From NCBI GenBank assembly GCA_030141605.1, contig JAQGDQ010000914.1:1-64000 (forward strand): a DNA stretch of 64,000 bases, given 5' to 3'. Source of the stretch: Tubiluchus corallicola (Eukaryota; Priapulida; Priapulimorpha; Priapulimorphida; Tubiluchidae). A program made the translations under genes and the position numbers. Below the pieces are notes generated by a model that was given only the letters and a program-made list of their open reading frames with translations, searched no databases and was not told the origin of the DNA. Shown in pieces: positions 1,711 through 64,000 of the stretch; position 1 is the stretch's first letter, and each line of letters begins with the position of its first letter.

Positions 1711-2935
1711 TGCGCAGAGCCAAGAAATTGGTCCATGAATTTAAAACACGGGACCTGCAGAGCCAGGAAATTGGTCCATGAATTTAAAACACGGGGCCCG
1801 CAGAGCCAAGAAATTGGTCCATGAATTTAAAACACGGGACCTGCAGAGCCAAGAAATTGGTCCATGAATTTAAAACACGGGATCCGCAGAGCCAAGAAAT
1901 TGGCTCATGAATTTAAAACATGAGACCCGCAGAGCCAAGAAATTAGCCCATGAATTAAAACATGGGACCCGCAGAGCCAAGAAATTGGCTCATGAATTTA
2001 AAACATGAGACCCGCAGAGCCAAGAAATTGGCTCATGAATTTAAAACATGGGACCCGCAGAGCCAAGAAATTGGCTCATGAATTTAAAACACGGGATCCG
2101 CAGAGCCAAGAAATTAGCCCATGAATTTAAAACATGGGACCCGCAGAGCCAAGAAATTGGCTCATGAATTTAAAACATGAGACCCGCAGAGCCAAGAAAT
2201 TGGCTCATGAATTTAAAACATGAGACCCACAGAGCCAAGAAATTGGTTCATGAATTTAAAACACGAGACCCGGTGCCAATTGGCACATGAATTTAAAACA
2301 TGGGACCCGCACAGCCAAGAAATTTGCACGTGAATTTAAAACACATGACCTGCAGAGCCAATTGGCACATGAATTTAAAACACGAGACCCGCAGAGCCAA
2401 AAGAAATTAGCCCATGAATTTAAAACACGGGACCCGCAGAGCCAAGAAATTGGTTCATGAATTTAAAACACGAGACCCGCATAGCCAAGAAATTGGTTCA
2501 TGAATTTAAAACACGAGACCCGCAGAGCCAAGAGAAACTAGCCCATGAATTTAAAACATGGGACCCGCAGAGCCAAGAAATTGGTCCATGAATTTAAAAC
2601 ACGGGCCTGCAGAGCCAAGGAATTGGCACATGAATTTAAAACATGAGACCCGCAGAGCCAAGAAATTGGTTCATGAATTTAAAACACGGGACCCGCAGAG
2701 CCAAGAAATTGGCTCATGAATTTAAAACACGGGACCCGCACAGCCAAGAAATTGACACATGAATTTAAAACACGGGACCCGCAGAGCCAAGAAATTGGTC
2801 CATGAATTTAAAACAAAACAAGGGGCCCGCAGAGCCAAGGAATTGGCCCATGAATTTAAAACACGGGACTCGCAGAGCCTAGAAATGGGCCCATAAATTT
2901 AAAACACAGGACCAGCAGAGCCAAATCACGTTGAA
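1711..2935. repeat. 42-bp minisatellite, about 29 copies
   Basis: A tandem array of a unit of about 42 bp with core 'cagagccaagaaattgg' followed by 'catgaatttaaaacac' and 'gggacccg'. Copies differ by substitutions and small indels, and several are shortened. It ends where the 5S-derived repeat begins. Short open frames across it are by-products of the repetition. Confidence 0.95.
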
Positions 2936-3110
2936 AACATCGGTTGTCGTCTGATTATCGAAGTTAAGCAATGTAGAGCCTAGTTAGTGAACACCCACGA
3001 ATACCAGGTGCTGTAGGCTCAGGATGCCCACACTGTATCTCGACACTAGGAGCTGCACAAGCAGCCAACAGCTAGAGGGCAGAGGAGGTCAAGTGACCCA
3101 ACGGCCATGT
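2936..3110 (+). repeat. 5S rRNA-derived SINE, 5'-truncated and diverged
   Basis: The sequence from 'cacgttgaaaacatcgg' through 'gaagttaagca' to 'aataccaggtgctgtagg' is 5S rRNA-like. It is followed by about 90 bp (cacactgtatctcgacacta to ggtcaagtgac) that also follows the 5S part of the copy at 25.05-25.26 kb. It starts about 12 nt into the 5S sequence, and the box C region (acttggat..gaccgcc) is largely lost. It is therefore a dead retrocopy, not a 5S gene. Confidence 0.75.
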
Positions 3111-3411: not shown

Positions 3412-4451
3412 TTACCTGGGAGATATCGTACTTACTTGAGCTGAACGATGTGAGGCGCCACTTACGTAAACTTTGCTGCTACATTTCCGGAATGGTCCGC
3501 ACCATATCCGTTGGTAATTCTGTCGAAATCTTGGATTTGTTATGGCATACAGGTACGGATTAATGAGAGAGTTAATGTACACCAGCCAGTAGGTGAACAT
3601 GTAAATGTAATCGTTCTCCATTGATAAATAGTAGCTTATTAGTTGACGGTAAACGGCATAAGGACTCCATGTGATGATGTAAGCAATGACGAGCACGAAA
3701 AGTGAAGTGGCTGCCTTTCTGTCCTTTGACAATAACTTGCGCGAATTTGCCTCTTTATGGGAGACGACAAAGTCCGTTTTATAGTTAAATTTTTTCTTTC
3801 TGTCATGGATGTTCTTATAAATGGAAATACTGAAGAACACGATGAGCGTTACCGGAATGAAAAAATCCGTGACATTCGTCCATATGGTGTATGGATGATG
3901 GTACAGGAACTCCACGTCACAGTAATTTTCCTCCAGTTCGGAGTAGCCCACAAAGTGCTCCCAACCAAAAATGCTGGGTCCCCAAAGCGCAAACACGATC
4001 ATCCACGTGACGATGATGATGCAGCGAGCCATTCTGATAGTTTGGTTCTGGTTGTATCTAGCGCCTTGCGAAACAAGTCGATATCGGTCCCAGCTGATGA
4101 GCACCATGGCAAACACGGATCCGGTGCACAGACAGAAGTCGATGAAGAGCCACAAGTCACAAAATACCATGGGAGCTAGCCACACCCAGTTCGCATAGAT
4201 GTCCTTGAATGCGAGAGGAGCGTCAATGCACCCAACTAAGAAGTCATTCGCTGCAAGATTAAGAATGAACGTATTTTGTACATTGCGCAGTTTCTTGTCT
4301 ATGCCGTATGACACGATTGTGGTCAAGTTGCCAAAAGTTGTCAGCAAACACTGGATGGTCACGAAAACGATCAAAAATGATCTTACGCCAGGTGGGAAAT
4401 AGTCAATATCATCTGTGTGATCGATATCGTCACATGATGTGATATTTGAAC
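3412..4451 (-). CDS. Histamine H3/H4-like aminergic G-protein-coupled receptor, 3' terminal exon
   Basis: A rhodopsin-class (class A) plasma-membrane receptor. One exon encodes about 345 residues with all seven membrane segments. TM2 has LAxxD. TM3 has an aspartate exactly 17 residues before the D of the WDRY motif, so it is D3.32, the amine anchor. TM5 has D-F-F-I-P, which puts an acidic residue at 5.46 where histamine H3/H4 receptors have a glutamate. TM6 has W-S-P (W6.48, P6.50). TM7 has W7.40, Y7.43 and NPxxY. The third intracellular loop is short, with a KDRKAA start to TM6. The exon starts after a splice acceptor (tgtttcag at about 4459-4452, phase 1), and an N-glycosylation sequon (NIT) lies before TM1. 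The 5' exon(s) upstream were not found. Subtype and ligand are inferred; a muscarinic-like or orphan amine receptor is the alternative. Confidence 0.85.
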
Positions 4452-4599
4452 CTGAAACATTATCAGTAGAACATTAGAGAAAACAACATTTTTTCTAAAA
4501 TCTGGCAGTGAATTGATACAAAAAGTTCCCTGTTCGCTTAGCAATACATAATCTTGGAATTCTATATACATTTCTAAATTTTGCACGTACAAATTGAAA

Positions 4600-21700: not shown

Positions 21701-22545
21701 CAACAATAACAACAGCAGCAGCAGCGCTTATGATGATCACGTTCGCGTTTCTCTCTCATATGTAAGTTTTCTTTTTGCAGCTTGACCTTGTAACGTGGAA
21801 CAACCGGACAATCGTCATGGCCAAAATGAAAAGGAAACGCAAAGTGGACGGTAACTTGGCGGGAATGTTAGAAAACTACATCAAATTCCAAACCAAAACC
21901 AACGTTGTTCAACTCATTGGTTACTGCAACAAAACTTTAACAATTTGCACGGAATACCATAAACTAGGCAACGCAAAGACCGTTCATCAAGTTCTAGAAC
22001 AATCGTCAGTTCATGATACAGCGAGACGTCGTCTAAAGTTGTGTATAGACTATGCAAGAGTCGCTGATTTCTTAGACAAACAAAACCTTTATCAGTGCGA
22101 CGCACACAGATTGAAGAAACTGTTGTCACAGTACCTCCTCACGGATGACCACCAGCTAGTTCTCAATGACCTTGAAGATATTAAACCTCGGGAAGCCAGC
22201 TGCACGTATATGAATCTTACCCTACGTTCAGATCTGAACTTCGAAGCACCAGAATCGAGATTGTGGAACGACACTGAATGCACCACAGTTACATGTGCCA
22301 AGAAGCAGCGAGCCATCAAACACGCAAATGAAGTGTTTAGAATACCGGATGTTTGCTTGTCATTCTTCTTCGGGATTAAGGATAATTGGGACCAGAATAA
22401 AAGGGAAAGATTTGCTTTTGCTGTTGATACCCTAGCGCCCGTGCATCAGGCTTGTAAAGATGCGGATCCAAATAAGAGACCGTCAATAAACTCTGTTGTG
22501 AAATTTTATCGAAACGTTCTGGCAAAAAATTCGAAATTTAAATAG
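17013..22545 (+). CDS. POMK: Protein O-mannose kinase (POMK/SgK196), complete, three exons
   Basis: Exons 17013-17073, 20700-20899 and 21781-22545; phases join exactly to 341 aa (human about 350). POMK is a type II membrane enzyme of the ER/Golgi that phosphorylates O-mannose on the laminin-binding glycan of alpha-dystroglycan. Exon 1 supplies a short cytoplasmic start and a membrane anchor (VKAVILISLLASVLY). Exon 2 adds a serine-rich stem and the family signature CPAGFFRL...MRNCSKWLNCEDL, then a glycine-containing loop (VNGGSKM). Exon 3 carries the kinase fold: NVVQLIGYC, TEYHKLGN, QCDAHRLKKLLSQYLL (catalytic-loop equivalent), LNDLED (the metal-binding position) and KRPSINSVVKFY. Each intron has a good GT donor and pyrimidine-AG acceptor. 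The stem's serine run is encoded by an ATC/TCA microsatellite. Homology confidence is high; enzymatic activity is inferred. Confidence 0.93.
18697..18790. repeat. (AT)n(GT)n(GC..GT)n microsatellite
   Basis: Alternating purine-pyrimidine tract: (AT)n, then (GT)n, then (GTGC)n, in POMK intron 1. Potential Z-DNA-forming sequence. The rest of that intron from 17.1 to 18.7 kb shows no recognised feature. Confidence 0.9.
19640..19800 (+). repeat. Dispersed repeat shared with 3.11-3.29 kb
   Basis: From 'caccctggagacgttcaag' to 'ccattgtcttccgagc' it is about 90 percent alike by eye to 3150-3265, in the same orientation. It lies in POMK intron 1 and is a retroelement fragment of unknown type. Confidence 0.6.
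20312..20674 (+). mobile_element. Solo LTR, family B, copy 1
   Basis: 363 bp starting TGTTGTGGAGATCGC and ending CACAACA, with near-matching 5-bp flanks ttgac (20307-20311) and ttaac (20675-20679). It contains a TATA box (ctatataac, about 20434) and AATAAA (20601-20606) in sense order. A shorter, inverted copy lies at 36978-37198. It ends only 26 bp before POMK exon 2, so the exon 2 acceptor region directly abuts an LTR. Confidence 0.75.
21187..21727. repeat. 540-bp CAG/CAA/TAG triplet tract in POMK intron 2
   Basis: A long imperfect trinucleotide array (AGC/AAC/AGT) occupying most of the 881-bp intron 2. Every frame on both strands is nearly open (poly-Ser/Asn, poly-Ala/Val, poly-Leu), which creates spurious ORFs. 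It ends about 50 bp before the exon 3 acceptor (tttctttttgcag). Confidence 0.92.
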
Positions 22546-25049: not shown

Positions 25050-25256
25050 AACAAGTCACTTGACCGCCTCCGCCCTCTAGCTCTGGCTGCTTGTGCAGGT
25101 CCTCTGCCTAGTGTCAAGATACAGTGTGGGCACATCCCGCAAGCCTACAGCACCTGGTATTCCTAGGCGGTCACCAATCCAAGTACTAACCACTTCAGTG
25201 CTTAACTTCGGTGATCAGACGAAAACTGATGTTTTCAACGTGATATGGCCGTAGTC
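25050..25256 (-). repeat. 5S rRNA-derived SINE with full-length 5S head
   Basis: The minus strand from 25256 reads as a complete 5S rRNA-like sequence of about 120 nt: GACTACGGCCATATCACG..., CGTCTGATCACCGAAGTTAAG, TTAGTACTTGGAT..GACCGCC and AATACCAGGTGCTGTAGGCTT. It keeps recognisable box A, intermediate and box C promoter regions. There is no T-run terminator. Instead about 85 bp follows that is shared with the copy at 2936-3110. A 5S head plus a shared non-5S body is the SINE3 type of retroposon. Alternatively it is a dispersed 5S gene with conserved spacer. Its first bases form part of the stop codon of the neighbouring gene. Confidence 0.75.
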
Positions 25257-28094
25257 ATTGTCCAATACTGTCGGCCATTTTACTCATGTCTTTCACAATT
25301 CGTATGCAATATTGTCCCTTGCAGTCGTCGTTATTTTCCAATAAACATCTCAACGTCTTGACGAACTCCTCAACTTCTCTCCTGAGGTCACCGCTATCCA
25401 CGTTCAAGTTATGATGATGGACCATTGCGTACATGGTTAGAAGGACTGCCGGACAATCGGCAACGAAATAAATATCCTAAAACAAAATGAAAAACGTTTT
25501 ATAAATCAGTTTGCAATTTAATTCCATTTTTGTAAATTTACAATTATTACAATCGTGTTATCATAACCTCTTAGGGAATACTAGACTGTCCAGACTTTGG
25601 TACGTGTTAGACAAACTACTGTAGAAGCTATTTTAACTTTATATTGTAATTCATGTATGATCTAGCAGAATCAATTTTCAAAAACAACTGTAAGCCTTCT
25701 TTTGTATTCACTGTTAAAACAGTAAAAATAATCTGATCCCATTTAACCTAAGTATAGCTGCTACTTAGAGCACTGGTTGGCTTGAATGAGTCAAAAAAAT
25801 GTTGAAAATAAAAGTATTCACGTCATATTTTTGCCATTGCACTTTTAAAGCTTGTACAAATGGAACCGTATCTGAAAACGTTACTCACTTTATTATTAGT
25901 TCTGCATTTGTACACTGTGTTGCGACCGTAGTTTCGACCAACATTTCCAGCTCGGTCAATTTTTCTGTCTCCAAGGTGACCAGCTTTCTGAACACGTCCA
26001 TCAGCTTCACTAAAACTTCCCGGACAATTGCAGTCTTCTGGAACTATTATCAGAAGAAATCCCTGTTGAATTTTTGTCCCAAATTCCGGCGAGGATGCCA
26101 CAAACTTGTTAAATTCTGTAAATATTGTGAATTAAAATAATAATTGAGTCAATCTTTGTACGTAACGTAACTATCTTAATTTCAAGATGATTTTAGTAGA
26201 TTTATACACTAAGGTTATTAAATTTTTGGAATCATGGTTAATCATTAAAAATTTAAAAAAACTCAAAATTGGAACTAATCTAGGAACTAGAATCAGTATT
26301 TTTGCGACGAGTCCAAATAATAATGTTAAAACTGATAATTTTCCATAATTACAGACAACTCCTGCTCAAACTCTTTGCACGTTTTTTATTCCAGAGCTTA
26401 GAAAATAAAAAAATCAAATCGCTATTTTTGGCAAAAGAAAATAACAAAGCCAAATAACTTTTGGCACTTCATATTCCTGATAACTGATATTTACATTTTG
26501 ATATCATCATGCAGCTATTTCTACTTCTGACACAGAGCTACATTATAAGACATCACTGTTTCTGAGATGCTTACCAGGCAAAATGATCCTCAAATACCCC
26601 AAGTAGTACGACCATGCCAAACCTGCACCTACATGGGTTGGGATAGACTGTAGTGAGGAAACAGTTTCCTCAAATTGCTCTTCGTCACTTTGTGAAATTC
26701 GTAGCGCTATCAAATCAGAAATGGTGGTCAGATCTTTGACTACAACGATGTCATACTGCCCTCTGAATGCTGGATTTGAAAAGAGGAGAAATTTAACAGT
26801 TCTGAGAAACTCTTGCATTTGCAACTGCAGCTCCTCTGGCAACATGTTAACGTCTCCACATTGTGACATCTCATAGAGATTCAGCAACGGTGTTGCAAAT
26901 TCACCAACAAAATAAGTCTCAACCTATAATGAACACCAGTAATTAAAAGATACATCCGACCAAAGAACAAATGAACGAATCAACAAATCAATTAATCTAC
27001 TATAACCATCCAGCCAGTCGGTAGTCGTGCCTTTACAGTATTTGCCTTTAGCAGTGTAAGTGTTTAGTAACTAATCATCTCTGTAAACTCTTATTTCAGT
27101 GATTATCAATGTTTTTAATGGCAAATAAAGATTATTAAACATATATTATGCGCATAGTTAGCATTTAGTTAGAAGGACAATGGTCAGTAAAACAGTCAGT
27201 GAATTGGTTGGTCACGTCAGTGAATTGAGACGGCCAGCCACTCAGCAAATCAGACAACATTCAGTTTGGAAAGTTAGTCCGCAATACTATGTTCGACTAT
27301 GATAAGTGTTTTAGTTTGTAAAAAAGTTATCTTTTAAGTCTTGTAATAGCCTGATTCTTTATGAATTTAGCAATTACAGAAGAATGCTTCGCCCCTGACG
27401 AAAAAATTGCAAAAAATATACGTGTAACAGATAAATTTCTCAATAAAAATATAAAATCATAAAATGATAAAGAAGTAAATAAAATACATTAGATATAGGC
27501 CTCTACTAGACAATGATATAATGACTCAATCAGCACTTACGTCATTTTGGGTGAATTTATATACGGAGTTTCGTCCATAATTACGTCGTACACTGCCTGC
27601 CCTATTGATAAACCGGTCCCCTAAATGGCCAGCGTGTTGAATTCGGCTGTCTGCCAAACCGAGGCTCTTGGGACAAAAGCAGTCTTCTGGCATTATGATA
27701 AAGAATTTTTTTGCTGATATTTTCTCTCCAAACTCTTCGGAGGATGCAACAAAAGTGCCAAAATCTGTAAATTCAAACCGTTTAATCAATGAAATAAATT
27801 AACGCCGGTTAATTGGCTAATGATTTTGTTGCAGAATAAACCCTAAAATGAATTGGACAAACCAGAAAATTAAAACAGAGATTACACTGTAAAGGTAGAC
27901 TGTATAATGCAAATAAAATTTAATATTGAAAAAGAGTTTTAGCTAAAGATATTTCATAGGCCTATAATAGTCTACTTCGATCACTTACCTTTTAATATAA
28001 TGTTTAGAAATCCATCGAAATACCCAAAAGCAAAGCCTTGCGCAGCATCTTTACTCACTTCACCAACGTTTAACGAACCACGTACATCAGACAT
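25255..28094 (-). CDS. Tandem STING cyclic-dinucleotide-binding-domain protein, no membrane region
   Basis: Exons (minus) 28094-27989, 27764-27541, 26923-26575, 26115-25889 and 25476-25255: 1,128 nt, 375 aa, phases 1,0,1,0. Two STING ligand-binding domains lie in series. Domain 1: GFAFGYFDGFL (20-30), MPEDC, AGHLGDR, RAGSVRRNY (90-98), EFATPLLNLY (118-127). Domain 2: GLAWSYYLGYL (211-221), VPEDC, AGHLGDR, RAGNVGRNY (281-289), DCPAVLLTMY (309-318). By alignment to human STING, R232, R238 and Y240 are kept in both; T263/P264 are kept only in domain 1; W161/S162/Y167 only in domain 2. An in-frame stop lies seven codons before the ATG, so STING's four membrane helices are absent; there is no TBK1-binding C-tail. 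Exon 3 fuses the two domains, so they form one transcript. Family assignment is strong; a role as a soluble cyclic-dinucleotide binder is inferred. Confidence 0.92.
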
Positions 28095-28192
28095 TTTAGT
28101 AGAACTTATATATTAGAAGATCGTTTCTGATATTATTCTGTCACAGTCGTAAGTTGACTTTAATTTGATCTCTACTGCGTTGCAGTCCCTAC

Positions 28193-28202
28193 TTATATAT
28201 AG
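28193..28202 (-). promoter_or_regulatory. TATA box of the tandem STING gene
   Basis: The minus strand reads GCTATATATAAG about 100 nt before the ATG at 28094, which would place transcription start near 28165 with a 5' leader of about 70 nt. A close TATA box argues that the first exon is complete and no upstream membrane-coding exon is missing. Confidence 0.55.
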
Positions 28203-28213
28203 CATACTGTTTC

Positions 28214-28223
28214 GGGGATCCCC
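28214..28223. promoter_or_regulatory. kappaB-like site (GGGGATCCCC)
   Basis: A perfect palindrome fitting the Rel/NF-kappaB consensus GGGRNNYYCC, about 12 bp upstream of the TATA box. A second Rel-like motif, GGGGAAAACC, is at 28252-28261, and the same 10-mer occurs inverted at 28473-28482. Binding is inferred from consensus only. Confidence 0.45.
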
Positions 28224-28262
28224 ATGCAAGTTGTTGTCAAAATAGAGAACCGGGGAAAACCG

Positions 28263-31200
28263 GATTGCTATCCTTTGTGAAACTTGCGTGCGCAGATGTA
28301 TTTACAGATGTTGGTACTTTGACACGCCTACAGACACCCGTAGCCTTGCATAGAAGAACAGTTGGTTTGTAAGCAGCGTTTTGATTGGATACAAAAGATG
28401 ATGCACCCTGACGTCACATGATTAGCGTAACGGATACTACACTCCCCCTGGCACGAATCATCTGCTGCAGACGGTTTTCCCCGTCATAATTTCGTCGAAG
28501 TATTCGTGTTTGCACTCCTTTCCTATTTGCTAAAGTGCGTCGAATCTAATGACAAATTTAGCAAATGCACGTAGCAACCACGCCAAATTAAAGTGTAAAT
28601 TCGTCTTAGCTACGATTAGTTTGGAGAAATCGGCGTAGTCATCAAAATCATGAGTTGATGACTAGGCAGATTCATCGCTGTATAATACATATTACCACAA
28701 TTCCTGAAAAAAATATTAGCTGTATTAGGAAATAATTAGTAATTTGTTAAACTTGTTGTTGTCTGAAAAAGTTGATTTGAATGATGATGTAACTGTAAAA
28801 AAATTCTAATGTAGCCTGTTAATTAAGTGCATATTTTATTTTTCACGGCAAGCTTGCAAATGAACTTCAACTTTCAATGAAATACTTCAGCCATATACCA
28901 TTTTTTAGATAAATATTTTAGCAATTAGCAGCCTTTACTAATTATAAGTGATGCAATCTTAACAAATATATTGTCAGTTTGTGAAATAAGAGTAATTTTC
29001 GTCGCAAGTGTAACAATAATAATGTATAATAATTCTAGACAAGCCCGGAATTAAGACATGAACAGTATAAGCGTGTTGCACTACAATCAATGACTGCCAT
29101 ATTCCAACAAAATATTGTAGTGTTTTATACGTCATTTCTATTAAAAAAATAAAAAGGCTATTTTACAAATTTGCATTAAATTCTGAAGTTCTTAACTTTA
29201 TTAAACACAAACATTAAATAAACCTAATTTGGTAATTTTACTAATTTATACGACGTTATATCGTTTATAAGATTGTAATTCATTAAACTAAAATGTTCAA
29301 AGCGATCAGTTCATAATAATTCCAAATAATACAAAATGATGTATTTACTTACATCGTATGTCTCCATAAAGCAAATCTAGTATTTACCAATATATCTGCC
29401 AAATTATGTCACTATCATACTGTGAAAAACTATTTTTAAAGAAGCCTGTTAACGTCTACCAACTAACTCACTTGCCCAGGTAGAAACAGATTTGCACAGG
29501 TGAGTGACCGTGGTCACGTGACCAACGAGATACTTGGCGAAGTTCCCTAGGGCACCAAGGTCCCAGGGACGCCAAACTGGCAAAAAATTGAAAACAGATA
29601 TCATGTTAATAAAGTATTTTAAACAGCATAAAAAGCCTTACGATTCAAAATGTGAGGTAGAGGAACACAAGCGAATGTAAAATTTTTTGCTGTTGGCAGG
29701 GATCATACTTTTTCTGTAGCTGATTAACTTAATTAAAATTTGATTTTAAAGTCAATAAAGAATTCAAATGCCATTAATCCTATATAGAGCAATGGGATTT
29801 GCTTTATAACTACAATTTATGATTTATAATTACAACACTTTAATTAATCCGGCTTTGATTACAGTTGATTATGAGGATCATCAAGGATCTTATTCTTTCT
29901 TGCTAAATTTTATGAAAACTATATTTAGCCAAGGTCTTCTCTACTTTTTCTGCTCACCAAGAAGAACCGATATTGCTGTGATCTTTTCTATTCCCCTTTG
30001 CAATGATTTCCTAACCTGGGCATAAAATCGTGCAATTTTTGCTAATATTTGCTTAAGCAAACAAAGGCTCATACTTTGAATATCTGAATAATGATGTTTA
30101 CTGGAAATCGTGAAATATATTATCTCCTCTGTGACGTAACACACCTCGTGACAACAGCTCACACAGCGTGACAACAACTACCTTTAGTAAACAACATAAC
30201 AGCTAATGTTTAATCAGCAGGTAAACTGATTGTGCTTTTTCATAAAGACAAATTTGCAGGGCGGCAGTTATATTTGCACGGAGTTAAAACTTCAAGTACC
30301 CGAAAAATGACTTTTCAATTTAAACAGAATGTAGAGACGAAGTTTCAAAGCACTGCAAAATACAAAGACATAAGTATAATAAAGAAACTAAGCCAGTTAA
30401 CATTGCTTTAAGATAAATGAGCATTAAAAATCTCTCTAGCCTTTGAACATCAAGCCTGCGATGTATTTCTTCTATAATTAACTGATCATGTGCTCATCTG
30501 TAAGATTTATCCAGTTTTTGTATTTTTTTCGTTTGTTAGGTTACGGAAATGGAATAAATTTGATTGTTCCATTCAATAGACGACCCTTATATCGACTGCT
30601 CGAGTTACATAAGTCCCAATGGCATCTTTTAACCTTGATTATAACCACATAAATAGAGTAAAATTAGCTAATATTACATTGATGTATAATATAAATTTTG
30701 GCCACATTTGAGTAAATGTGGACCATGAAGATCTTATCGAGGTTTATAAAAGCTGACCAGAAAAGAAAATATTTTGCCTGAAAACATTTTGTCTGCATAT
30801 GGGGTTTCTACGAGTGTCCTCGGTTACTCATAATCATGACAGTTGTCACGGATTCTCGTGAATGAGTTCAACCAATACCGAATAGCTTATTCTCTACAAC
30901 TTACACAAACCTACTTAGAGTAATGTTATAACTAGTCGTTTAAAAATTCACATATTCTCATATATGAGCTTAATTCAATACACCTTTCCATTCTGTAGCA
31001 CTAATGTTTTCTTTATCATACGATTCACTTCATATTTTCAGATTATTTTCATTAATTTTTTTTACTTTTTTACTTTTTTTTCTTCACAGTGTGGGACAAT
31101 CTAACAAGCCCTGCTTTTTGATTGCCCGCAACACATTTACATTTGTATATGTAGCAAACCTAAACTATGGTATATCTAAACTAGTTATGTGCTCAAAGTA

Positions 31201-61724: not shown

Positions 61725-64000
61725 TTACCTTCTATATCTGTACCGCTTGAAGTGAAACCACAACTGAAAAATGCCATTGTGAAACTGACAGCGGAAGCCG
61801 CGCTTGTAGGAGTACTCCCATTCTCGATTGACAACCTTAAATGCAATGTCTTCGTACGGCGGCCCTGCGCGAAATCTCAACATGGCAAAATCCTTGTTTT
61901 CCGGAAGAGGAGTCAGAAAATATTCGGGCGTTGAAGATTTGTCTATTATGTCCGGGTAGAAAATGTTGAATTTATACCCCTGTACGATTTTAGGTGGCGG
62001 GTTATCAAAATCGTAGTGGGTCTGGTTATATTTGTTCCACTCAAATCCGGTGTGAACGCGATTGAAGAAGCGCGGCTTTCTCGGCCGGTATTTATCCTGC
62101 CACAGGTAAGAGGTGTTGTCAAGCGGAACCTCGACACTGAATTGAGCCTCTTCGCCACTCATGCCTTTCCTGGCTTCTCGCTCAAAAGCGGCATCTTCTG
62201 CAGACATGACTCGACCTCTTTCGGAAATTTCCCGTCTCTTGAATTGCAACCTTTCCAAGTCTAACATGGCATCCATAATGACAGTGCCAAGATCTAGATC
62301 CTTTTCCTTAGTTAGTTTTGGGCTATATCTGCCGGCTTCGTATTCTTCGTAATAGTAATTATTAACAATATCTTCAGTTTCTTCTTTTCCTGAACTTTGA
62401 TCACCGTCTGCCTCTTCAGAAATCTTGATAAATTCGGCTGTGCTGTCTTCATCCCGTTCTTCTTTCACAGTAACATCCATAACACTGGGTACTTCAACCG
62501 GTTGTTCCTCCGAGCTAATAGTAATGTCACGTTCACCTCGCAATTCTTCTGCTTCTCGCTTTACTATGAGGTCAGCAATAGCTTCTGACTGCTTGAAAGA
62601 TTTCGCTGTGGCCTTTGGTGAATTTGTCACACTTCTGGGCAAACTTGGTCCAGGGGAGGGTTGACTAGTGCTGCCCTCCTGTGCTATTATTGGAAACAAT
62701 GGCATACTTTCCACACCTTGTTCTTGCTTTAGCTGGAATAATTTTTTCCGCAACAAATCCTGATGTCGATCGCGGAGTCGTGCTTTTGCCATGTACGCTT
62801 GCAACTGCTGTAGTAAAGACTCCCAATATCCTATATCAATACCTTCTTCTCCACTCCGGATTTTACTAATAATCTGCTGCTGTAGTATTGCGAGCTGATT
62901 TGATGTCTTTCCCCGGAATACTTTACTAATGTCTTGTCGAACAGCGTCATTAATGCCTTCCCGCCTGGTGCCCACATGTTCCTTATTCAGAGGATCAATT
63001 TTCCGTAACTTATTTAGTTCATCTTCTGTAACAATTGTCATGTCTTTCCAATAATCGAGATTGTGAGCATCATCTAAGTCCATATAAACTTTAATATCCT
63101 CCAAAAGATCTTCTAGATCGCCAATTGTTAATCCAGTGAGATAAGTGTACGGCTCGTTCATTTCAACTGCTTCAGTTTCTTCGTCCGCAGTTATGTATTT
63201 GGCAAGTAAGTCAATGGGCTTTGCTCTTCCATCTTGAATACGGATTTTTGATCTAAGTTTTGCTTGCTGTAGATGAAATTTCTCTTCTTGTTGAGACCAG
63301 CCGGCAAACTGTTCAGATTCCTTTGTCCGTTGTAATAACTGCAGTTCCTCTTCTCTCTGCAAGCGCTCGTGTTCTCTTTGTAAGCGAGCTTGCTTCACCT
63401 TTTCCAATTCCCTTCTATTTTCCTCTAGGTTTTTCATGTTCATTTTGGCAATCTCTTGATTTGTCAATTCTTGAAGACCCTCGTGCTCTAGTTTCTTTTT
63501 CCACACAAATGTATCAAGTAACGTCGCATCTCCAAATGGGTTATCGGTGTTGGTGTATCCGAGGTAGTCTTTGTCCCAGCCCATTTTCATACGTCGTTGT
63601 CGCTCTTTTGCTTCCTTTTTGGCTAGCCGCCTTGCTCGTTTTTCTTCTGGTGTTTCATTAAGCTTCATTAGTTCCTTTTGTTTTAGTTTCTCTTCTTTCG
63701 TAAGTGGTTTACTTTCCGGAATTCTACGCTCGCTTCCGTCGTCTAGTTCCTGTTCACTAGACGCCGAGTCACTATTATTCGATGACGTTTGTCGTTTAGT
63801 AGGTTTCTTTTCCTTGCGTCGTATTGACTCCGAACGCGACCGTGACCTCCTTTTCCTGTGGTTCATCTCTTGTTCACTAGACTCGTTACTGTCGGACGAA
63901 CTTCGTGGTCTCGCACGTTTGGTCTTTTTCTTGTGCTGCTTTGGCAGTGGACTATGTCTTGATCGTTTCTTACGATATTCTCGTGATCTTGATCGGCTCT
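61725..64000 (-). CDS. CACTIN: Cactin, 5' end beyond the window
   Basis: Cactin is a nuclear protein found with the spliceosome; in Drosophila it binds the IkappaB Cactus, and in vertebrates it dampens NF-kappaB signalling. One uninterrupted frame of at least 757 residues runs from the window edge to the stop at 61725-61727 (human protein about 758). The N-terminus is rich in RS/KR residues, with an in-frame Met at 63866 that is probably internal because the RS-rich frame continues to the edge. Next come long charged coiled-coil segments (EEKRARRLAKKEAKERQRR, NMKNLEENRRELEKV), the middle domain (LAKYITADEE... LTIGDLEDLLEDI) and the conserved C-terminal domain (last 125 residues: DKYRPRKPRFFNRVHTGFEW, PPPKIVQGYKFNIFYPDI, and the end FQLWFHFKRYRYRR). 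No intron in this part. Identity is very secure. Confidence 0.96.
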   Translation of the reverse strand, partial: SRSRSREYRKKRSRHSPLPKQHKKKTKRARPRSSSDSNESSEQEMNHRKRRSRSRSESIRRKEKKPTKRQTSSNNSDSASSEQELDDGSERRIPESKPLTKEEKLKQKELMKLNETPEEKRARRLAKKEAKERQRRMKMGWDKDYLGYTNTDNPFGDATLLDTFVWKKKLEHEGLQELTNQEIAKMNMKNLEENRRELEKVKQARLQREHERLQREEELQLLQRTKESEQFAGWSQQEEKFHLQQAKLRSKIRIQDGRAKPIDLLAKYITADEETEAVEMNEPYTYLTGLTIGDLEDLLEDIKVYMDLDDAHNLDYWKDMTIVTEDELNKLRKIDPLNKEHVGTRREGINDAVRQDISKVFRGKTSNQLAILQQQIISKIRSGEEGIDIGYWESLLQQLQAYMAKARLRDRHQDLLRKKLFQLKQEQGVESMPLFPIIAQEGSTSQPSPGPSLPRSVTNSPKATAKSFKQSEAIADLIVKREAEELRGERDITISSEEQPVEVPSVMDVTVKEERDEDSTAEFIKISEEADGDQSSGKEETEDIVNNYYYEEYEAGRYSPKLTKEKDLDLGTVIMDAMLDLERLQFKRREISERGRVMSAEDAAFEREARKGMSGEEAQFSVEVPLDNTSYLWQDKYRPRKPRFFNRVHTGFEWNKYNQTHYDFDNPPPKIVQGYKFNIFYPDIIDKSSTPEYFLTPLPENKDFAMLRFRAGPPYEDIAFKVVNREWEYSYKRGFRCQFHNGIFQLWFHFKRYRYRR

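Follow-up and report, generated by a model that had tools for sequence, protein, structure and literature searches.

Structure of the tandem gene and its flanks

The 64,000-nucleotide stretch of Tubiluchus corallicola DNA analysed here (hereafter the window), which lies on contig 818 of a 343.5-Mb genome, contains on its minus strand a gene whose predicted product carries two STING ligand-binding domains in a single chain. Five exons spanning 28094–25255 join in frame to give 375 codons followed by a TGA stop; all four introns have GT/AG ends, and the exon phases run 0/1/0/1/0, the pattern of exons 2 and 3 being repeated by exons 4 and 5. A preliminary description of this DNA had placed a gene of five exons at exactly 25255–28094 and had reported an in-frame stop seven codons 5' of the ATG, and both proved correct. 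The exons are:

27989–28094, minus strand: exon 1, which encodes the start codon and the opening helix of STING domain A; donor GTAAGT
27541–27764, minus strand: exon 2, beta core of domain A, with R90, R96 and Y98 equivalent to human R232, R238 and Y240
26575–26923, minus strand: exon 3, C-terminal portion of domain A (with E118, T121 and P122), a linker of about 20 residues, and the opening helix of domain B (with S215 and Y220)
25889–26115, minus strand: exon 4, beta core of domain B, with R281, R287 and Y289; phase as in exon 2
25255–25476, minus strand: exon 5, C-terminal portion of domain B (with D309, A312 and V313), closing with the TGA stop

The two halves of the window protein, A and B, are 46% identical over 171 ungapped residues, and the Pfam profile STING_LBD (PF15009) matches the protein twice (whole protein 215.6 bits, E 4.5e-64). 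Each half alone also scored far above the cut-off of 27 bits (104.9 bits, E 4.3e-30 for A; 115.2 bits, E 2.9e-33 for B), which bears out the earlier proposal that one chain contains two complete STING domains. The only other profile above its Pfam cut-off was prok_STING (27.1 bits), which is called typical of bacteria-like eukaryotic STINGs in excerpts of a 2023 survey (PMC10732462). This cut-off was passed by the whole window protein (30.8 bits) and by its relative P0001 (34.4 bits) but by neither half of the window protein alone, and the pass of the two-domain proteins may be explained by the summing of two half-scores. Neither a TIR domain nor a caspase domain was matched by Pfam in the window protein. 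The fold of the window-gene family, compared for its first half, was that of STING. Nearest by sequence among solved structures were coral STINGs (8gjz, 8efm, 8efn), a 354-residue STING chain (8ydn), a metazoan TIR-STING (6wt6) and anemone STINGs, the organisms being those given in the structure titles.

The peak hydropathy of the window protein over 19 residues was 1.45, as compared with 2.2–2.5 in the three membrane STINGs that we measured; by this measure the protein contains no membrane helix, and the four N-terminal helices of canonical STING were not found. A C-terminal tail that binds TBK1 and IRF3 is a feature of vertebrate STING; a motif search of the window protein detected no PxPLRT-type tail, and the protein stops where domain B stops. 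The preliminary description had called the protein soluble, without membrane helices and without a TBK1-binding tail, and our results support it on all of these points. The window protein is thus a member of the STING_LBD family by domain content but does not belong to the canonical membrane STINGs, two defining features of which (the membrane helices and the tail) were sought and not found.

The gene is flanked by putative promoter elements on one side and by a dispersed repeat on the other:

28192–28201, minus strand: TATATATAAG, TATA-box-like, at about -107
28214–28223, no strand assigned: palindrome GGGGATCCCC, kB-like, at -129
28252–28261, plus strand: GGGGAAAACC, Rel/NF-kB-type motif, at -167
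28473–28482, minus strand: GGGGAAAACC, second Rel-type motif, at -388
25056–25258, minus strand: 5S-ribosomal-RNA-derived repeat of about 200 bp, resembling a short interspersed element (Rfam 5S_rRNA at 25142–25256, E 2.8e-12)

The first of these corresponds to the TATA box that had been reported about 100 bp upstream. The 64-kb window has two copies of GGGGAAAACC, which we take to be a Rel/NF-kB-type site, and both lie upstream of the window gene; the expected number is 0.05, and two copies were seen in none of 100 shuffles. The promoter of the paralog on contig C460 (described below) harbors GGGGAAAACC at -188 and a variant, GGGGAAACCC, at -408, a spacing similar to that in the window gene; this looser variant was sought in the two promoters only, without a background count. 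In 287,546 bases comprising the window and the loci that we extracted (L001–L008, which overlap others, being omitted) there are six exact copies of GGGGAAAACC: two at the window gene, two on C1326, one on C460 and one on C2160. The C1326 pair belongs to a duplicated copy of the window gene and is not independent, and the C2160 copy is some 4 kb 5' of the earliest exon located for the caspase gene on that contig.

The first bases of the 5S-derived repeat overlap the stop codon of the window gene, its boundary being uncertain by a few bases. Truncation of the protein by this repeat was considered and rejected, as the C termini of P0001 and of a second relative, P0002, agree with that of the window protein to within two residues, and the repeat probably has no effect on the protein. 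Further copies of the repeat lie at window positions 2920–3097 (plus strand) and in locus L027 (8836–9041).

Relatives, paralogs and other STING genes

A search of 5.8 billion proteins for relatives of the window protein returned three. P0001 (373 residues, 85% identity, 98% covered) starts and ends within three residues of the window protein; P0002 (229 residues) begins at about position 146; and P0003 (303 residues) has exons 1–4 spliced, apparently continues into intron 4, and is 93.5% identical to the C460 gene over 292 residues. Because P0001 is a single open frame in a contig of 1,280 bases, whereas the window gene spans 2.8 kb, and because the frames of both P0001 and P0003 cross splice junctions, including that between A and B, these two sequences derive from spliced RNA, a retrocopy being the sole alternative. 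The paralog (C460:506095–525742) is intact, has five exons with the phases of the window gene, is 59% identical to it, and carries an in-frame stop two codons before its ATG. A P0001 frame that runs across the spliced exons, taken together with a paralog with matching phases and an upstream stop, argues that the window gene is not a gene-model artefact and that the two-domain architecture is conserved in P0001, P0002, P0003 and C460. Additional upstream exons were rejected on the starts of the relatives and on the in-frame stops; the earlier remark that membrane helices had not been overlooked is borne out by the same evidence.

A tree of 19 of our 21 domain sequences (the B half of P0003, which is cut short, and the incomplete P0008 were omitted) grouped the A halves together (support 93/91), the B halves together (99/98), and A with B (88/89); two caspase-family domains sat on very long branches, so that their placement is unsure. 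From the grouping of A halves and of B halves we infer that the internal duplication preceded the split between the window gene and C460, a split that in turn is older than the separation from the P relatives. Over 365 codons, window gene and paralog differ by 0.83 at synonymous sites, which is near saturation, and by 0.26 at nonsynonymous sites, and this low nonsynonymous change points to purifying selection. A profile built from four tandem sequences and run against 8,000 candidates sharing most words with them, proteins of similar length, recovered 12 STINGs besides P0001–P0003, nine of which carry STING_TM. The genome also has two damaged duplicates of the window gene. One (L018, on C1326) is about 92% identical where aligned and has kept its promoter, but no alignment was obtained for exons 2 and 5 or for the end of exon 1; the other (L019, on C1793) contains stops.

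A STING_LBD search of the whole genome scored 29 candidates, and the counts that follow, taken from the 22 candidates whose E value did not exceed 0.001, are lower bounds. There are at least 22 matches: four in the window gene, four in C460, two on C1326, one on C1793, one on C2317, and ten in a divergent family on C235, C414, C2160, C1844 and C2192. All 22 lie in two-domain genes or fragments of them, and a single-domain membrane STING was seen in none. A STING_TM profile search of the genome gave no match but is a weak test, the control genomes having given none either; a membrane STING protein used as query, likewise a weak test, matched only two sites, both of them ligand-domain exons of tandem genes. 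The earlier suggestion that the window protein partners a membrane STING is therefore less likely, no such STING having been found in this genome (by a STING_TM search lacking a positive control), and proteins of the divergent family are more plausible partners.

In particular, members of that family link STING domains to a caspase. On C2160 (235868–244692; L030, L015), nine exons with matching phases, for which an upstream start was not found, predict a complete caspase domain (E 5.3e-44, covering profile positions 1–232 of 233) and, after it, two STING_LBD domains, with the THG and QACRG motifs, which we take to be the catalytic His and Cys motifs of caspases, intact. Caspase exons lie 5' of the STING exons on the same strand in all five loci: p20 pieces on C2160 and C2192, and p10 or later caspase exons on C2160, C414, C1844 and C235 (on C414, C1844 and C235 the comparison covered the nearer upstream stretches). 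C235 has two more caspase pieces beyond its STING exons, which may belong to the next copy. Since the C2192 gene is 48–58% identical in its STING part (37–61% in its caspase pieces), the caspase-then-STING order is old. The family is 24–29% identical to the window gene and is possibly more striking than the tandem STING itself.

A third type of STING gene is present on C2317 (L017, 281500–291400; about 279–287 kb). It is apparently tandem: three exons make up one STING domain, and a second domain is matched more weakly. Exons upstream of it gave a weak HEPN_Swt1 match (E 0.0013, below the cut-off) and contain an RNNHAH motif, so that HEPN-STING-STING is a possible product if the predicted exon join is correct. 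The genome also contains nine matches to Mab-21-type nucleotidyltransferases, and two of the three that we examined by Pfam carry ankyrin repeats. L034 and L035 (on C1560 and C918) are long single-exon proteins in which ankyrin repeats precede a Mab-21 nucleotidyltransferase domain and Mab-21_C, resembling cGAS-like receptors (cGLRs).

Elsewhere in the window, an intronless frame of 353 residues at 3415–4473 (minus strand) encodes a rhodopsin-type G-protein-coupled receptor (Pfam 7tm_1, E 6.9e-44), and a frame at 21766–22542 (plus strand) has a weak protein-kinase match (PF07714, E 1.9e-5). The mid and C-terminal domains of cactin are encoded at 61728–63998 (minus strand). Among the best 120 of 2118 matches to cactin, the top identity over the whole query was 60%, to an unnamed protein; the best named match was Haliotis (59%), with a chiton at 58% and vertebrates mostly at 53–58%, and identities of about 72% extended over little more than a third of the query. 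Because identity over the whole query was at best 60% among these matches, the database searched with cactin seems to contain no annotated animal closely related to this one. A COX1 gene was not found in the assembly.

Ligand pocket and interpretation

To compare pocket residues across the 21 domain sequences, we used positions that we take to contact the ligand in human STING (S162, Y167, R232, R238, Y240, E260, T263 and P264). Equivalents of R232, R238 and Y240 are present in both halves of the window protein, of C460 and of the relatives. The equivalent of S162 occurs in half B only, and those of T263 and P264 in half A only; D309, A312 and V313 of domain B occupy the positions that E260, T263 and P264 hold in ordinary STING. 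These complementary residues of A and B are conserved in the window gene, C460 and the relatives, a pattern that fits a ready-made pseudo-dimer. In the caspase family, positions 260–264 read E-F-A-T-P in one domain and D-Y-P-S-A in the other, the order of the two types being reversed relative to the window gene.

The account that we favour, with modest confidence, is that the window protein is a cytosolic single-chain STING pseudo-dimer, a cyclic-dinucleotide receptor that modulates the effector-fused tandem STINGs. Domains A and B, with about 20 residues of linker between them, would pair within one chain to form a single asymmetric pocket for a cyclic dinucleotide, needing neither dimerisation nor a membrane, and the gene would probably be induced by Rel/NF-kB-type signalling. 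Ligand would close the two STING domains over the pocket, as described for the STING dimer in excerpts of one report (PMC9980059), and side-by-side stacking would follow, as in the filaments of bacterial TIR-STING (excerpts of PMC12421889). Stacking of caspase-STING-STING proteins would then bring their caspase domains together and turn them on. The window protein, a sensor without an enzyme, would bind the same or related ligands and set the threshold of the pathway, either by buffering cyclic dinucleotides or by joining the caspase-STING-STING stacks. Cis pairing, ligand binding, Rel induction and modulation are all steps that we infer; modulation is the weakest of them and, taken by itself, is plausible yet on balance somewhat doubtful.

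Several observations weigh against this account. AlphaFold2 models of P0001, judged by their overall scores, had predicted local distance difference test scores of 60 and 65 and predicted template modelling (pTM) scores of 0.45 and 0.48, at which domain placement is not confident; the deeper of the two, for which 14 alignment rows, mostly exon fragments, were partly stacked by MAFFT on the wrong half, raised pTM to 0.48 only. The preliminary description had proposed a ready-made dimer in one chain, and its proposal fits the conserved pocket residues, but neither model positions A relative to B with confidence, so that cis pairing is a prediction; its further suggestions, a cyclic-dinucleotide receptor and a sink or decoy role, are likewise predictions. 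Each half lacks some of the residues that contact the ligand in human STING, so ligand binding may be altered or lost, and the halves could pair between chains. The pocket of the caspase family has drifted further, with S162 and R232 lost in both halves and Y240 in one, and may bind something else or nothing. A GS..[DE]xD pattern was found, in a crude motif search, in none of the six Mab-21-type loci examined, and an endogenous source of ligand is on this account hypothetical; bacterial ligands are an alternative source. Lastly, the one ground for a modulatory role is the absence of an effector domain.

Effector-less relatives of caspases co-assemble with caspases, and by analogy the window protein could have lost ligand binding and act as a dominant-interfering or scaffold protein, joining caspase-STING-STING through side contacts between STING domains. 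The incomplete contact residues of each half agree with this, as do the absence of an effector and the existence of effector-fused relatives; we nonetheless regard it as unlikely, for the retention of R232, R238 and Y240 in both halves of both paralogs and of the relatives would be hard to explain without a ligand, and the divergence of the caspase family makes mixed assembly uncertain. A little less likely again is pairing in trans, with A of one molecule joined to B of the next in ligand-strung filaments that would act as an activating scaffold and not as a sink. The complementary A and B residues would fit such an arrangement equally well, and STING domains form filaments in bacterial TIR-STING (excerpts of PMC12421889), but the linker of about 20 residues should favour pairing in cis.

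Two further readings are very improbable. That hidden upstream exons encode membrane helices, or that the halves are separate genes, is conceivable in that the model of the window gene was predicted from DNA; it conflicts with the matching starts of P0001 and P0003 and their passage across splice junctions, the A–B junction included, with the in-frame stops seven and two codons before the ATG in the two paralogs, and with the genome searches, which yielded no STING_TM match (no positive control) and, for the membrane STING query, only ligand-domain exons. Equally remote is the idea that the window gene is a duplicate on its way to loss. The two broken copies on C1326 and C1793 and the 5S-derived repeat on the stop codon are what a decaying family might display, but the frame of 375 codons and its splice sites are intact, synonymous change is near saturation while nonsynonymous change is low, and the gene is conserved in relatives.

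Beyond the favoured account of the single-chain receptor, a wider and more tentative picture is that in one animal lineage soluble single-chain STING pseudo-dimers with asymmetric pockets replaced membrane STING. They would be used both alone, the stand-alone tandem STING serving as regulator, and as a caspase switch activated by cyclic dinucleotides, perhaps also with a HEPN-type nuclease (C2317). Such an arrangement would resemble the cyclic-oligonucleotide-based antiphage signalling systems (CBASS) of bacteria, in that ligand would directly turn on a cell-killing enzyme.

Comparison with known systems

In excerpts of published surveys, animal STINGs consist of membrane helices plus a domain or, rarely, are TIR-STINGs (PMC10732462), 88% of animal genomes have one STING (PMC9980059), fungi have PNP-STING (PMC12424679) and choanoflagellates have membrane STING (PMC8592570). 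Literature searches confined to an open-access library, and judged mostly by titles and the opening lines of abstracts, turned up no tandem or soluble two-domain animal STING and no caspase-STING fusion by name; an earlier description elsewhere is possible. Whereas canonical animal STING has four membrane helices and one ligand-binding domain, the window protein has two specialised halves in one chain and neither the helices nor the TBK1-binding tail. The genome of the coral Stylophora pistillata is like this one in its expanded set of STINGs and in having ankyrin-fused cGLRs, the counterpart here being the ankyrin–Mab-21 proteins; unlike the window protein, all seven of its STINGs have membrane helices and one domain (excerpts of PMC9980059).

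The oyster TIR-STING (PDB 6WT6/6WT7) shares with the window protein an animal STING domain, the two halves matching it with E values of 2.9e-21 and 9.1e-19, and its chain presumably also lacks the four membrane helices; it has one STING domain and a TIR effector, where the window protein has two STING domains and no effector. The STING effectors of bacterial CBASS (TIR-STING and others) are likewise soluble receptors. They have a single STING domain and homodimerise, and the window protein fits the animal STING_LBD profile far better than it fits prok_STING. The caspase-STING-STING genes, for their part, repeat the effector-plus-STING plan of bacterial CBASS.

STING is otherwise familiar as a homodimer anchored in the membrane or, in oysters, as a TIR fusion. 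A natural single-chain pseudo-dimer would allow each half of the pocket to be mutated separately, which is impossible in a homodimer, and the basis of ligand asymmetry could then be tested directly. The tandem gene and the caspase-STING-STING genes together suggest that the bacterial design, a soluble effector switched by a cyclic dinucleotide, was re-invented in animals, which would mean death signalling that needs neither membranes nor TBK1 nor transcription.
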